A stretch of DNA of 64,000 nt, from assembly GCA_003576905.1 (NCBI GenBank), contig QEVG01000008.1:62001-126000 (forward strand), given 5' to 3'. Each line of letters begins with the position of its first letter. The stretch's first letter is position 1. Position numbers and translations under genes: made by a program. This document shows positions 17,700 to 24,515 of this stretch, piece after piece. The DNA comes from Planctomycetota bacterium. GTDB taxonomy: Bacteria > Planctomycetota > Phycisphaerae > UBA1845 > UTPLA1. The notes under the pieces are model-generated. The model had not been told where the DNA came from and did no database searches. It saw nothing but the letters and a program-made list of their open reading frames with translations.

Positions 17700-18284
17700 T
17701 TACATGCGAAGAAAATTGGCGAGGAGCTTCGTGCCTTCGGTGGTAAGAAAACTCTCTGGGTGGAACTGCACGCCTTCGAGCGGGGCGGACTTGTGGCGGA
17801 GGGCCATGCACTCGTTTTGTTCCGAGCGTGCGGAGACTTCAAAGTCCAAGCCAAGCGTGGCTTCTTCGACCATCAGTGAGTGATAACGGGTCGCGGTGAA
17901 CGGGTTGGAGAGACCGGCGAAGAGGGTCCTCCCGTCGTGGTGAATCTCGCTGGTTTTTCCGTGCATGATCCGCCCCGCGCGGACGACGGCGGCGCCGAAG
18001 CTGTGGCCAATGCACTGGTGGCCGAGGCAGACGCCAAGGACGGGAATGCGCTTGAAGAAGTGACGGATCGCGTCGTTGCTGATGCCGCCTTCCTTTGGGG
18101 TGCAGGGGCCGGGCGAGATGACGAGGTGGGTGGGTTTTCGCGCGTCGAGTTCGTCCAGCGTGACCTGGTCGTTGCGGTACACGGCAATTTCGTGGCGCAG
18201 GCCCGGGTCGTCGAGGCCGATCTCTCCGAAGCGCTGAACGAGGTTGTAGGTGAAGGAGTCGTAGTTATCGATGATAACGAGCAT
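17700..18284 (-). CDS. Anthranilate/aminodeoxychorismate synthase glutamine amidotransferase subunit
   Basis: Class I glutamine amidotransferase, 194 residues, releasing ammonia for anthranilate or 4-amino-4-deoxychorismate synthesis (TrpG/PabA type). It opens with MLVIIDNYDSFTYNLVQ, has PGPCTP, the nucleophile in GVCLGHQCIGH, and the His-Glu pair in QFHPESFLT. The partner synthase subunit is not in the window, so trpG and pabA cannot be told apart. Confidence 0.93.
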   Translation of the reverse strand: MLVIIDNYDSFTYNLVQRFGEIGLDDPGLRHEIAVYRNDQVTLDELDARKPTHLVISPGPCTPKEGGISNDAIRHFFKRIPVLGVCLGHQCIGHSFGAAVVRAGRIMHGKTSEIHHDGRTLFAGLSNPFTATRYHSLMVEEATLGLDFEVSARSEQNECMALRHKSAPLEGVQFHPESFLTTEGTKLLANFLRM

Positions 18285-18298
18285 GATTCCGGCCTGTT

Positions 18299-18712
18299 TC
18301 AGGGATTGGTTGTATTTACCGCGCGGTCATCGGGTACGGGATTGCCGCACTCCGGGCATAGTAGCGCCGGGCTGCCAGACAGATCATAACCGCAATGTCG
18401 GCAGAAAAACCCGCATCGCTTAAGGACCACGATGCCTTCCAACCTCATCATCGAGACCGCTGCGAAGATCGCAAGACAACCCACAAGGATCAGCTGTTGC
18501 GGGAATTCGGCGGGCCTGGCGACCCAATCGATGAGTCGCAAGAGAAGGAATGCGATGATCCCCACGGCAGCCACAGCGACGAATCGTCTCCCCTTGTTGA
18601 AGCCAAGAAGGGAACCACATCGCCTGCACCGCCACCTGGCAAACAGCCATGCCCTGAAGATCCTGCGCTCCGTGGGCACCGGCGCCGTGCAGTTTGGGCA
18701 TTGAGCCGCCAT
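18299..18712 (-). CDS. Small membrane protein with two zinc-ribbon motifs
   Basis: 137 residues. An N-terminal CPNC...CRRC pair and a C-terminal CRHCGYDL...CPECG pair flank two membrane helices (AVAAVGIIAFLLLRLIDWV and LILVGCLAIFAAVSMM). The C-terminal CGYDLxGxxxxxCPECG motif is frequent in Planctomycetota membrane proteins. Function unknown. It lies upstream of, and on the same strand as, the amidotransferase gene with a 14-base gap, so the two may be co-transcribed. Confidence 0.65.
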   Translation of the reverse strand: MAAQCPNCTAPVPTERRIFRAWLFARWRCRRCGSLLGFNKGRRFVAVAAVGIIAFLLLRLIDWVARPAEFPQQLILVGCLAIFAAVSMMRLEGIVVLKRCGFFCRHCGYDLSGSPALLCPECGNPVPDDRAVNTTNP

Positions 18713-18841
18713 TCTTACATCATAATGCGGAACGCGCGGGACGGAATCCGGTTCAGTCGTCGCCCGCGGGGTGCCGCGCGGTTACTATCGCCGTGTGAAC
18801 GTCCCGTGAGGAGGGACTGTCTTCGATTTGGAGGGTGCAAC

Positions 18842-20014
18842 GTGAAGCCAGCCCAGGGCCCCGGTTTCGAGACACAATGCATTCACTTTGCCGAGGATCG
18901 CGAGGCCAACTTCGGCGCGGCCGCGCCGCCGCTCTATCAATGCTCGACATTTACTTATCCCGACTGCGAGCAGTTCGTTGGCCGCGCCCCCGGCAACGGG
19001 CGGTACGACTACACGCGCGTCGGTAACCCGACGACGGCGCTTCTTGAGAAGAAGTTGGCGGAACTGGAGGGCGGCGAGGCGGCGCGGGCATTCGGTTCAG
19101 GCATGGCGGCGATCTCGGCGGCGGTGCTTTCGTGCGTGAGGGCCGGGGAGCATGTCATCACAATTGACACTGTGTACGGGCCGACACGGCGGCTCCTGTC
19201 GGAGTACCTGCCGCGGTTCCACATCGAGACGACGTATGTGCGCGGCACCGAGGCGAGCGACTTTGAACGGGCCATCCGGCCGAACACGAAGCTGATCTAC
19301 CTCGAGTCGCCGTCGAGCCTGCTCTTTGAGCTTCAAGACCTGGCGGCGGTGGCGGCCTTGGCGCGGTCGCGGGGAATCTCGACCGTCTGCGACAATTCGA
19401 ACGCGACGCCGTTGTACCAGAACCCGCTGGCGCTCGGGGTGGACCTGGTGATGCACACGGCGTCGAAGTACATCGGCGGCCACAGCGACATCGTGGCCGG
19501 GCTTTTGGTCGGCTCGCGACAGCGGATTGCGGCCCTATCGACGATGGAAGGCGAGCTGCTCGGTGGCATCGCCGATCCGTTCTCGAGCTGGCTGATGCTG
19601 CGCGGCCTTCGGACACTGGCGATCCGCCTGGAGCGCCACGAGCGCAGCGCGACGCAGCTCGCGCGGCTGCTTGAGAGCGACATGCGCGTGGCACGAGTCT
19701 GGTATTCCGGGCTGGAGACCCATCCGCAGGTCCGGCTGGCGAAGCGCCAGATGCGCGGGCATGGCTGCCTGCTGAGCTTCGAGCTGCGGAAGCCGGGGCG
19801 CGAGGCGGCTTTTGCCTGCGTAAACGCCCTGCGGTACTTCGGAATCGCAGTGAGCTGGGGTGGCTACGAGAGCCTGGCGATTCCGGTGGAGGTCCCCGAT
19901 CCGGCCGACGGGCGTCGCAAGTGGATCGTCCGGCTGAGCGTGGGCCTGGAGTCGGTTGAGGACCTCAAGGCCGATTTGTACCAGGCGCTGACGGTGGCCT
20001 GCGGCGCGCAGTGA
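18842..20014 (+). CDS. Cys/Met-metabolism PLP-dependent enzyme (cystathionine gamma-synthase/lyase family)
   Basis: 390-residue fold-type I PLP enzyme acting on sulfur amino acids. Motifs: YDYTRVGNPT, ARAFGSGMAAISA, and the PLP lysine in MHTASKYIGGHSD. GTG 18842 is chosen because GGAGGG lies about five bases upstream and the homologous region begins there; the frame is open further upstream but runs antisense to the zinc-ribbon gene. Members include cystathionine gamma-synthase, gamma-lyase and methionine gamma-lyase; the reaction cannot be fixed from sequence alone. Confidence 0.88.
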   Translation: MKPAQGPGFETQCIHFAEDREANFGAAAPPLYQCSTFTYPDCEQFVGRAPGNGRYDYTRVGNPTTALLEKKLAELEGGEAARAFGSGMAAISAAVLSCVRAGEHVITIDTVYGPTRRLLSEYLPRFHIETTYVRGTEASDFERAIRPNTKLIYLESPSSLLFELQDLAAVAALARSRGISTVCDNSNATPLYQNPLALGVDLVMHTASKYIGGHSDIVAGLLVGSRQRIAALSTMEGELLGGIADPFSSWLMLRGLRTLAIRLERHERSATQLARLLESDMRVARVWYSGLETHPQVRLAKRQMRGHGCLLSFELRKPGREAAFACVNALRYFGIAVSWGGYESLAIPVEVPDPADGRRKWIVRLSVGLESVEDLKADLYQALTVACGAQ

Positions 20015-20066: not shown

Positions 20067-20095
20067 TTGTAGGGGGGTGCATGCCGGGCTACAAT
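20067..20095 (+). promoter_or_regulatory. Promoter of kdsC-lptC/A-like operon
   Basis: TTGTAG (20067-20072), 17 bases, TACAAT (20090-20095). An ATG at 20077 lies inside this promoter, so kdsC should start downstream of about 20101. Confidence 0.55.
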
Positions 20096-20178
20096 ATGGG
20101 CCCGATCCCAAAGGTCCAGGCGTTTTGGCCCGTGCGGGTGTGCCCGCGGGCGCGTGCGCCGTCGCCGGATATCCCGCC

Positions 20179-20667
20179 TTGCCGGTCATCAAGCTCCTGA
20201 TTCTCGATGTTGACGGCGTGTTGACCGGCGGCGAGTTGACCTATGACGAGCGCGGCTGCCTGACCAAGACTTTTCATGTGCAGGATGGCGGGGCGATTCG
20301 TTCGTGGCAGAAGGCCGGCGGACGGGTGGCGATCATCAGCGGCCGGACATCCGCGGCAGTGGCCGAGCGTGCCCGGGAGCTTCAGATCGATCTGGTCGCC
20401 CAGGGGGTCGGCGACAAGTTGCCAGTGTTTGAGAAGTTCTGCCGCGAGGCGGGGGTGAGCGCTGCCGAGGCGAGCTTCGTCGGCGATGACCTGCTCGATA
20501 TTCCGCCGATGCGGCGGTGCGGATACCCGATCGCGGTGGCCAATGCGGTTCCCGCGGTGAAGCGCGAGGCCCGGTACGTCACCGAGCGGCGCGGGGGCGC
20601 GGGGGCGATCGGCGAAGTGGTGCGGCGGCTCCTGCGGCACAACGCGACGCGCGACAAGTGCTGCTAA
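20179..20667 (+). CDS. kdsC: 3-deoxy-D-manno-octulosonate 8-phosphate phosphatase (KdsC)
   Basis: HAD-family phosphatase giving KDO for lipopolysaccharide core. From TTG 20179 the product has 162 residues: LLILDVDGVLTGG (nucleophile and general acid Asp), VQDGGAIRSWQKAGG, IISGRTS, and FVGDDLLDIPPM. GTG 20140 and TTG 20125 are alternative starts; ATG 20077 sits in the promoter. There is no cap domain, as expected for KdsC. It is followed after 68 bases by the LptC/OstA-like gene, the same pairing as kdsC-lptC in Escherichia coli. Confidence 0.88.
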   Translation: MPVIKLLILDVDGVLTGGELTYDERGCLTKTFHVQDGGAIRSWQKAGGRVAIISGRTSAAVAERARELQIDLVAQGVGDKLPVFEKFCREAGVSAAEASFVGDDLLDIPPMRRCGYPIAVANAVPAVKREARYVTERRGGAGAIGEVVRRLLRHNATRDKCC

Positions 20668-20735
20668 GGCCGCGGCGCGGCGGCGGACGCTGTTAGCGAA
20701 GACGAGAACCGGACCAGGACCCGGATACAAAGCTG

Positions 20736-23700
20736 ATGAACAATGGCCTGTATAAAAAGCTGATGCTGATGGGTGTGACGTTCCTCATGGCCGTGGGGGC
20801 GTACCTGCTCTTTACCAGTGCGGACCACGCGGCCAAGCCCAAGGACAATCCGGAGGCGCCGGAGGCGGTTCGAAAGTTCGTCAGCCGGCCGCCGACAACG
20901 CAGCAGACGGTGACCTCCCTCGGCGACGCGGGCATGTCGTTTTCACCGGGCGACCAGACACGCGTGAAAATCTACGACGAAGTCACCGGCCGGCTGAAGT
21001 ACATCTTCGAGGCGAAGAGCTGGGAGCCGATCTCTGAGTCGGACTATCGGTTGCGCGATCTGGCGATCCAGATTTACATGCCGCGCGGCGAGATTACCTA
21101 TATCAACTCCGACCAGGCGGAGGTCACGCTGGTGCGGACGAGCGGAACGCGGGTCGATCCGAAGCGCGGGCGGCTCTGGGGCAACGTGAAAGTGACCATC
21201 GACAGGACGACGGCGAAGTGGCGCGAGGAGCACCCCGACTTGGCGGATCGCTTCAGCCACCCGGACGATCTGATCAACATCACGCTTTCGGAAGCGCGGT
21301 TCGACATGGACCGGGCGGAACTACTGACCGACGGCGAGGTGTTCGTCGACAGCAGCGAGGCGCGGATCGAGAACTGCCGCGGGCTGACGGTCCAGTGGGA
21401 CCAGGTGGACAACCGCATCGACCTGCTTCGCTTCGAGCACGGCGGGCGAATGACGCTGCGCCGCGGCGGAAAGATGGTGGACTTCGCCATGCCGGGGGCG
21501 ATGCGCGACACGAAAAAGAAGAACAAGGCAAAGGCGGCGGGCGCGCAGAGCGGCGCAGCGGCGTTCAGCGCTCCGAAGGCGGCGGCGATGCGTCCCATGT
21601 CGGTCGCGGCGATCACCGCGGCCGAGGCGGCGGCGGAGATACGCGAGGAGAGCGGGCTCGTCTCGACGAACCAGCCGAAGTCCATTCGCGCGGCGACGGC
21701 CTCTCCGACTCTTCAGACCGGGCAGGTCCGCAGCAAGGAAGAACTGGCCGCGGCGGTCGGAGCAATGCAGAGCGAAGCGCGGTCGGCCAAGTCGGGCGAA
21801 CCGCTCGTGCACTCGGTCATTGACGAGGCGCTGGCGAAGGAGCGGAGCCGCGTGCAGACCTATCGGGCGATCTTCACGAATGAGGTCGTCGTGGAACAGG
21901 TGGACGGACTGCGCACGATCGGCAAGATCGAGGCGGATCGGCTCGAGGTGAACTTCGATTTCGGCAAGAAACAGCGGAAGATCGCGGCCGAGCGGCCGCG
22001 GCCGCAGGCGCCTGCCAGTGTTGCCGATGCGCAGGCCACGCCGCTGGAAACCGAGGAGACGGGCCTGTCGCAGAATCCGCCGGATGAGGACAAGACGAAG
22101 CTGACGCTCATCTGGAACGGCCCGCTGGAGATGCGGCCGATCATCGCAGAGCCGGCGGAGCAGACGGGCGATCGGTTTGACGCCATTGCGAATGGCGCTC
22201 CGGTGAAGATCTACAGCGAACAGGCGGGCAAGGACAAGGTGGCGACGGCCTTCTGCGATCAGCTTGTCTATCGGCACGAGCGGCGGCAGGTGTGGATGTC
22301 CGGCGGCGACGCCCGGCCCGTGAAGATTCACGTCGATGGATCAGGCGGGCTGTCGGGGCGGGAAGTGTTTTTTGATCAGCAGCGCGGCCTGGGTCACGTG
22401 GACGGGCCCGGTCTGATGACCGACGACCGCGATGAAGATGCGCCGGACGGCGAGGGCTCGCCGATCTTCGCGGCGGCCTCGGGGATGGGCGGCGACGGCG
22501 CGAAGGCGCAGGGCCGGCCGCGCGATCCGGTGGAGATTCGCTGGACGCGTGGGGTCGACTTTGAACTGGGCGCGCGGACGGTGACCGTCATCAATGATGC
22601 GACCGGGATGGCCGAGGAGAAGAACCGGGAGTTTCTGCGCCGCGCGTGGTTTCATGGCGAGGTGTCGATCCGCCAGGGCGAGGACAGCCTGACCGGCGAC
22701 GAGGTCGCCGTCACGTTCGGCGCGCCGATGTCGGGCGAAGACGTCGCCGATCACATTTCGCATTTGAGCATGACCGGCAACGTGCGGCTGGTGCGAGGCG
22801 ACGACGTGCTCGCGGGCGACCGGCTCGAGGTGCAGATGGCCCTCGCGCCGGACGGCCGGAGCCTGCCAAGCATCGTGGACGCCGCCGGCGATGTGCTCGC
22901 CAAGCAGGAAGCCCGCGAGATTCGCGCGGACAAGATGCTCGTCCACATGACGGCGCTACCGGGCAAGCCGCGGACGGCCCCGGACGGCAAGACGACGATC
23001 CCGGGCAAGTCGCGTCCGGGGATTGAGACCGTGGACGCGACCGGTCGAGTGCTGGTGCGCGACCCGGGGCAGAATCTGAAGATCAGCCGGGCGCGTTCGC
23101 TCAAGGCGCGGATGCGGAACGGCAACGAGCTGGCGTGGGCATCGATCCTGAGCGGTACGCCGGGACGTTTTGCGCGGACGCGGTACGGCGACGTGGCGCT
23201 GCACGGGGAGCGTATCGAGATCGACATGACGCGGCAGTCGATTGAGGTGCCCGGGCCGGGTGAATCGTTCATGCGGACGACGGAGGATTTCGGCGGTCGG
23301 AAGCTGAGCGAACCGACGATCGTGCGGACGAAGTGGTCGGACCGGATGCAGTTTCACCTGGAGAGGAACTACGGAGTGTTTCTCGGGGACATCGTGAGCC
23401 GGACCGACAATTTCACGATGAAATGCGACAAGCTGACGGTGCGGTTCGCCAAGGCGCCGCCTGCGGCTCCGCGCGAAAAGGAGAAGGAAATCTCGCCGCT
23501 GCGGCTGCTCGCCGACGTGCGGCGGGAGGCGGCGATGGCCAGCACGTTCTTCTCGCCGGGGGCGGTGGTTGGGTACGCGGCGACGCGGCTGCTTTACGGC
23601 CTGCCGCAGGGAAGGGTCCTGGGGCGTTATGCGCCGTCCCTCGGGGGCGATTCGGAGGGCGCGACGATCGAGTACGCTGCGATCAGCGGCGAGCGCAAGA

Positions 23701-24515
23701 AGCCGGTCTATGTCGTCGCCGAGGGCCACGCGGAGGCGATCAGCACGGAACACGCGCCGCGGTCGGGTCTTCGGCTGCGGGGCCGGCTCCTGTCGCGGGC
23801 GCGGATCGCGGCGGATCAGATCGCGGTCGACCTGAATGCGCAGCAGATGAACATACCGTGCAAGGGCACGCTGCTGCTGGAGGACTACCAATTTGATCCG
23901 CGGGCGCGGCAAGCGCAGGCGATGGCCTCGCGCAGCGCGTCTCCGATGATGAGCAGCCTGCGCAGCGACGGGCCGAGCCAGACGGCCGTCACGTGGCAGA
24001 ACTCGATGGATTACTTCGTGGACCGCAATCTCGTGGTGTTCGACCGTGATGTGACCATGATGCATCGAAGCGGGCGTGAGATGGTCATGCAGGGCGAACT
24101 GGCCACGGCGATGGGAGTCGATCCGGACCAGTTGCTGCGGATCGGCAAGGGGCGCATCGCCACGCTGCGGTGCGGCAACCTGCTGCTGGAGTTCAAGACA
24201 CAGAAGACGGAGAAGTCCGATGGCCAGCGCTCGCCGACGGATGCCGTGCGCTCGACCGATCTTCAGCGGCTTATCGCGCGGCAGGCCGTGCACATGCGCG
24301 AGAACACGCGGAGCCTGACCGGCGAGCACCTGCAATACCTCGCCGATATCGGCGAGATTCGCGTGGAGGGCGGCCCCGGATTCGAGGCGACCATCATGGA
24401 CGAGGAGGAGCGGAGCGGGCGGTTCATGACCTGGCGCGGGCCGGTGCTGGTGTGGAATCGCAACACCGGGCACATCGACGCACCCCGGGCGACTATCCGC
24501 ACGAGCCAGCGGTGA
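20736..24515 (+). CDS. Giant LptC/OstA(LptA)-like lipopolysaccharide export protein
   Basis: 1259 residues, far longer than LptC (about 190) or LptA (about 185). An N-terminal membrane anchor (KLMLMGVTFLMAVGAYLLF) is followed by an LptC-like segment (about 60-135). Several OstA-like beta-repeat units come next, recognisable by sequences such as GNVRLVRGDDVLAGDRLEV, FHGEVSIRQGEDSLTGDEV, LGDIVSRTDNFTMKCDKL and FDRDVTMMHRSGREMVMQ. Ala/Pro-rich linkers separate them. Downstream of kdsC it occupies the place of lptC-lptA, so one protein may serve as both anchor and periplasmic bridge. No lptB follows. The domain reading is by eye; the role in lipopolysaccharide transport is inferred from context and repeats. 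Confidence 0.72.
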   Translation: MNNGLYKKLMLMGVTFLMAVGAYLLFTSADHAAKPKDNPEAPEAVRKFVSRPPTTQQTVTSLGDAGMSFSPGDQTRVKIYDEVTGRLKYIFEAKSWEPISESDYRLRDLAIQIYMPRGEITYINSDQAEVTLVRTSGTRVDPKRGRLWGNVKVTIDRTTAKWREEHPDLADRFSHPDDLINITLSEARFDMDRAELLTDGEVFVDSSEARIENCRGLTVQWDQVDNRIDLLRFEHGGRMTLRRGGKMVDFAMPGAMRDTKKKNKAKAAGAQSGAAAFSAPKAAAMRPMSVAAITAAEAAAEIREESGLVSTNQPKSIRAATASPTLQTGQVRSKEELAAAVGAMQSEARSAKSGEPLVHSVIDEALAKERSRVQTYRAIFTNEVVVEQVDGLRTIGKIEADRLEVNFDFGKKQRKIAAERPRPQAPASVADAQATPLETEETGLSQNPPDEDKTKLTLIWNGPLEMRPIIAEPAEQTGDRFDAIANGAPVKIYSEQAGKDKVATAFCDQLVYRHERRQVWMSGGDARPVKIHVDGSGGLSGREVFFDQQRGLGHVDGPGLMTDDRDEDAPDGEGSPIFAAASGMGGDGAKAQGRPRDPVEIRWTRGVDFELGARTVTVINDATGMAEEKNREFLRRAWFHGEVSIRQGEDSLTGDEVAVTFGAPMSGEDVADHISHLSMTGNVRLVRGDDVLAGDRLEVQMALAPDGRSLPSIVDAAGDVLAKQEAREIRADKMLVHMTALPGKPRTAPDGKTTIPGKSRPGIETVDATGRVLVRDPGQNLKISRARSLKARMRNGNELAWASILSGTPGRFARTRYGDVALHGERIEIDMTRQSIEVPGPGESFMRTTEDFGGRKLSEPTIVRTKWSDRMQFHLERNYGVFLGDIVSRTDNFTMKCDKLTVRFAKAPPAAPREKEKEISPLRLLADVRREAAMASTFFSPGAVVGYAATRLLYGLPQGRVLGRYAPSLGGDSEGATIEYAAISGERKKPVYVVAEGHAEAISTEHAPRSGLRLRGRLLSRARIAADQIAVDLNAQQMNIPCKGTLLLEDYQFDPRARQAQAMASRSASPMMSSLRSDGPSQTAVTWQNSMDYFVDRNLVVFDRDVTMMHRSGREMVMQGELATAMGVDPDQLLRIGKGRIATLRCGNLLLEFKTQKTEKSDGQRSPTDAVRSTDLQRLIARQAVHMRENTRSLTGEHLQYLADIGEIRVEGGPGFEATIMDEEERSGRFMTWRGPVLVWNRNTGHIDAPRATIRTSQR

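Follow-up and report, generated by a model that had tools for sequence, protein, structure and literature searches.

The window analyzed here is a 64,000-nucleotide stretch of planctomycete DNA, in which the gene for the Kdo-8-phosphate phosphatase KdsC is followed, after a gap of only 68 bases, by a single very large open reading frame (ORF) on the same strand. The features that we delineated at this locus, with the main evidence for each, are as follows.

20077..20667, + strand: kdsC, Kdo-8-phosphate phosphatase (TIGR01670, 146 bits against a cutoff of 107)
20736..24515, + strand: giant LptC-LptA-type fusion protein, 1259 aa (single ORF; PF03968, 56 bits; class-wide family)
20745..20816, + strand: N-terminal membrane anchor helix, residues 4-27 (hydropathy; AlphaFold2 model)
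20931..21461, + strand: LptC-like jellyroll module, residues 66-242 (fold matches to LptC in the PDB; hhalign to planctomycete LptC)
21507..21851, + strand: Ala-rich linker or loop of low confidence, residues 258-372 (pLDDT mostly <50; variable in the alignment)
21843..22460, + strand: OstA/LptA-like module, residues 370-575 (profile matches within the giant; LptD-N fold)
22524..23225, + strand: OstA/LptA-like modules, residues 597-830 (LptD N-domain fold; PF03968 stretches)
23232..24077, + strand: OstA/LptA-like module with an inserted loop, residues 833-1114 (fold matches to LptC, Z 12.9, and LptA, Z 12.6)
23988..24512, + strand: C-terminal OstA/LptA-like module, residues 1085-1259 (profile of separate LptA proteins, 96.0%, E 4.8e-9; low AlphaFold2 confidence)

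The giant ORF has no internal stops over its 1259 residues. It cannot be dismissed as a chance reading frame because it has full-length relatives, which are 38 to 68% identical within the family, and a matching frame in 89 of the 91 genomes of its class. Its only strong hydrophobic stretch is at the N terminus: the best 19-residue hydropathy window starts at residue 9 (mean, 2.0), no window beyond residue 40 exceeds 1.05, and the AlphaFold2 model places a helix at residues 4-27. Thus, two elements of the initial annotation, namely, one 1259-residue protein downstream of a genuine kdsC and a single membrane anchor, are borne out. The true start of kdsC itself probably lies further in, near residue 33-37. 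Upstream of it, we noted by eye a glutamine amidotransferase gene (18284 down to 17700 on the - strand, i.e., 17700-18284) and a gene for a pyridoxal phosphate (PLP)-type enzyme of Cys/Met metabolism (18395-20014, + strand); this amidotransferase/PLP enzyme/kdsC order recurs in the relatives at L051, L052, L053, and L054.

Domain composition of the giant protein

Searches with the Pfam library recovered a single family in the giant, PF03968 (LptA/LptD_N), with 56.2 bits against a cutoff of 20.4, which satisfies our test for an LptA domain; the match falls in three stretches, all within residues 636-833. The LptA equivalog model TIGR03002 scored 48.8 bits and missed its cutoff of 71.7. The Pfam LptC model, PF06835, gave no match to the window's giant even at an E value of 10, and a sequence search of the giant against the PDB was likewise without a match. 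Hence, of the LptC and OstA resemblance proposed from the initial inspection, only the OstA part is recovered directly by family models, and the LptC part had to be sought through relatives, fold, and profile comparison.

For structure prediction, the giant was modeled with AlphaFold2 as two overlapping pieces, residues 1-700 (six sequences; pLDDT, 61.5; pTM, 0.60) and residues 590-1259 (pLDDT, 65.9; pTM, 0.58), from alignments of only 5-6 sequences. Residues 66-242 of the model match LptC of Vibrio (Z 16.0; root mean square deviation, 3.2; 136 aligned residues), Enterobacter (Z 15.1), and Escherichia coli (Z 14.2 and 13.7), all of which rank above LptA (Z 12.0). Combined with the helix at residues 4-27, this jellyroll provides a membrane anchor joined to an LptC fold, the arrangement that we had set as the test for an LptC fold. 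A profile of the N-terminal domains of nine class members aligned in hhalign with that of six planctomycete proteins bearing Pfam LptC domains at 96.3% (E 1.6e-9); against the OstA/LptA references, the same segment of the giant reached only 0.6-1.1%. Moreover, PF06835 is detected above its cutoff in 4 of the 22 aligned relatives, in one of them over residues 66-194. The link of the giant to LptC therefore depends on relatives, fold, and profile comparison, the direct Pfam search being negative.

The rest of the chain was investigated by dividing the class alignment into segments and comparing their profiles with the OstA/LptA regions of other planctomycetes. Every later segment matched at least one of the two planctomycete OstA/LptA references at 60-97%, for instance residues 820-912 with LptA at 96.6%, against a maximum of 0.7% for column-shuffled controls, those of residues 370-575 against the OstA reference included (<=0.7%). 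Nonoverlapping segments of the giant also match one another: the profile of residues 370-575 recovers residues 730-850 (96.3%) and residues 1080-1259 (96.4%). Two pairs of segments, S4/S5 and S6/S7, were drawn with a built-in overlap and were excluded from this count of self-matches. At the level of fold, the N-terminal jellyroll of LptD is matched by residues 599-830 (Z 15.0) and, more weakly, across residues 242-677 (Z 11.9), and Foldseek alone retrieved LptD and LptA at E values of 3e-7 to 1e-3. The LptD barrel model PF04453 has no match in the giant, the C-terminal half of which is modeled as jellyroll-like to about residue 1114.

The several OstA-like repeats initially suspected are thus supported by PF03968 in three stretches and elsewhere by structure and profile comparison, and the prediction yielded a series of Lpt-type beta-jellyroll modules rather than the jellyroll-free fold that would have refuted the proposal. 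Judged from the predicted strands, the chain may correspond to about four LptA-sized units, the LptC module included; the exact number of modules cannot be fixed. The inter-module loops, of 30-115 residues, and the model beyond about residue 1150 are of low confidence. Given these loops, the 5-6 sequences in the alignments, and pTM values of about 0.6, continuity of a groove from module to module is not demonstrated.

Distribution in the class and the phylum

A single-protein search across the phylum proved insensitive (5 of 149), and a profile search was used instead. It found the giant in 89/91 class genomes and in 81 of the 82 good ones; the frames range from 705 to 1311 aa, with a median of about 1101 (77 class values). 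Those relatives that carry names are metagenome-assembled genomes of Planctomycetota and Phycisphaerae, and the gene directly upstream of the giant is usually kdsC or the neighboring Kdo gene kdsD.

Beyond these giants, a Pfam tally detected both LptC and LptA/LptD_N domains in 27 of 199 phylum genomes. In 22 of the 27, the two lie in the same open frame, of 445-1195 aa. Other planctomycetes as well have, at the kdsC locus, a single protein in which both domains are recognizable. They lie apart in the remaining genomes (G018, G028, G036, G089, and G145), and separate LptA genes thus persist in some other planctomycete lineages; G028, for example, has the order kdsD-kdsC-lptC with lptA elsewhere. 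This range of states suggests a passage from separate genes through fusions of 640-670 aa to giants of 1000-1300 aa, i.e., fusion followed by the addition of modules, the direction being inferred without a tree.

Three further contexts were observed among these genomes. In G018 (L098:1202-2643), the frame with the LptC domain runs 4 bases into a separate LptA-like gene, an overlapping pair that is a possible prefusion state. G036 (L018:359-6992) has separate, adjacent lptC and lptA genes, placed not after kdsC but after genes that appear, by inspection of the sequence, to be fatty acid synthesis genes and dnaJ. Finally, a glycerophosphodiester phosphodiesterase with HEAT repeats (L086:8121-9905) is encoded downstream of a 664-aa LptC-LptA fusion.

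The remaining Lpt components and competing explanations

The genome (4.7 Mb in 65 contigs, 97% complete) encodes LptB (314 bits) and adjacent LptF/LptG-type permeases (LptG-like, 160 bits; LptF-like, 106 bits). It also encodes a separate, divergent 1038-residue LptD-like protein. By model, its assignment is weak (PF04453, E 0.0055; NF002997, E 4.7e-6); its homologs are 27-34% identical over 850-1000 residues and in two relatives are encoded beside or near the giant. Taken together, model scores and the gene neighborhoods of relatives place lptB, lptF, lptG, and lptD all in this genome, lptD being weak but consistent. The LptF-like permease (G000:C50, L014:7499-9244, - strand) has 581 aa, about 200 more than its 373-aa partner, and the additional residues fall in what is presumed to be its periplasmic part; this may be an enlarged jellyroll that docks the giant.

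No separate lptC was found with PF06835 in the 97% complete genome, and a genome-wide PF03968 search at E values up to 1 returned no protein other than the giant and the one resembling LptD. The expectation that lptB, lptF, lptG, and lptD would be present without lptA is therefore met as far as these searches reach, and the separate lptA or lptC that would have overturned the proposal did not emerge. The main rival explanation remains that the giant is a component of an Lpt bridge that is completed by a short, very divergent LptA encoded elsewhere. LptA is a fast-diverging protein, it has a gene of its own in the planctomycete lineages mentioned above, and an lptA could have been missed because the assembly is not complete. 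Yet the permissive PF03968 search left no candidate, and the giant already has several LptA-type modules, one of them at its C terminus; we regard an additional LptA as improbable, without setting it aside.

About equally improbable, in our estimate, is an Lpt-like system that exports a glycolipid other than Kdo-lipid A. The envelope lipids of planctomycetes are poorly characterized, and the machine is divergent, both of which leave room for such a cargo. However, the giant is linked class-wide to kdsC/kdsD, the Kdo transferase WaaA is present (184 bits), and LptD, along with BamA, was reported in all planctomycetes surveyed (PMC3422733).

A third possibility, to which we assign very little weight, is that the giant belongs with the unrelated, bridge-like lipid transfer proteins of the AsmA/TamB type or represents a duplicated LptD N-terminal domain with no LptC role. 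The AsmA/TamB group also includes long, beta-rich periplasmic proteins with one membrane anchor, and the giant is similar to them in these respects. Nevertheless, Lpt proteins head its list of PDB matches, and its N-terminal domain is specifically LptC-like; TamB and AsmA are absent among the fold matches listed, an absence that alone is no proof. An assembly artifact fusing two genes is ruled out by the occurrence of the same full-length frame in independent relatives.

A probable one-piece bridge and its relation to known systems

We consider it highly probable that the periplasmic bridge of this Lpt system is a single polypeptide, the giant, with an LptC-type anchor on LptB2FG, a covalent series of LptA-type modules, and a handover to LptD. 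Mechanistically, the membrane helix and LptC-type jellyroll would dock on the LptB2FG extractor, lipid A/lipopolysaccharide (LPS) would be driven along the covalently joined LptA-type grooves across the periplasm, and the C-terminal module would mate with the N-terminal jellyroll of LptD to hand over LPS. It is inferred that the giant docks on LptFG and LptD, that its groove is continuous, that it carries LPS, and that no soluble LptA exists. Consequently, where the initial annotation envisaged a continuous bridge in place of LptC and LptA, the architecture stands (domains, folds, and no separate genes found), and a continuous conduit working without soluble LptA is only an inference. The class-wide occurrence of the LptC-LptA-type fusion architecture is well supported. 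We are less sure of the stronger statement, toward which we nonetheless lean, that throughout the class the complete bridge for LPS from the inner to the outer membrane is one covalent chain whose number of modules is set genetically, without free LptA. If this is true, one gene determines the length of the bridge, and the fusions seen across the phylum would record how the bridge was built.

We found no description of a natural LptC-LptA fusion in the literature; subscription papers and preprints were outside the scope of this search, and priority is not certain. Literature matches to "LptCA" were rejected as fusions, being names of point mutants in the paper examined. A phylum-wide survey described the planctomycete Lpt system as largely reduced (PMC8871954), a description that may be explained by long fused proteins in which lptC and lptA are, at least in part, likely hidden. 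According to PMC7237710, it is not known how many LptA units make up the bridge in E. coli, and the need for a stable oligomeric bridge is debated (PMC5575297); a covalent bridge of fixed length would make both questions testable. Thanatin-type antibiotics target the LptA/LptC junctions (PMC7237710, PMC10208570), and since a covalent bridge should lack free junctions of this kind, it would offer a natural comparison.

Among known systems, the giant resembles LptC (PF06835; E. coli and Vibrio) in its N-terminal helix followed by a jellyroll and in its place after kdsC but differs in continuing for about 900 residues of LptA-like modules and in escaping the Pfam LptC model. It shares with LptA (PF03968, TIGR03002) its OstA/LptA modules, recognized by Pfam, profile comparison, and fold; in contrast to LptA, it is membrane anchored and joins several copies covalently in one chain, with large loops inserted. 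At 1259 aa with a predicted anchor, it does not have the small, soluble, oligomerizing form of LptA, and because this form and the TIGR03002 cutoff are both unmet, we call it an LptC-LptA-type fusion and neither LptA nor LptC. Residues 597-830 resemble the N-terminal jellyroll of LptD (Z 15), whereas the beta-barrel is lacking in the giant and the LptD-like protein has its own gene. The two OstA proteins of diderm Firmicutes, of about 200 aa each (PMC5007114), likewise contrast with it. Closest are the shorter planctomycete LptC-LptA fusions (e.g., L086 and L094), in which an LptC domain and LptA modules likewise belong to one protein, encoded after kdsD-kdsC; these, however, have about 640-670 aa, roughly half the length of the giant, with three PF03968 stretches, and are nearer to canonical LptC and LptA. 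The system is thus most likely the known Lpt machine with a one-piece variant of its bridge.
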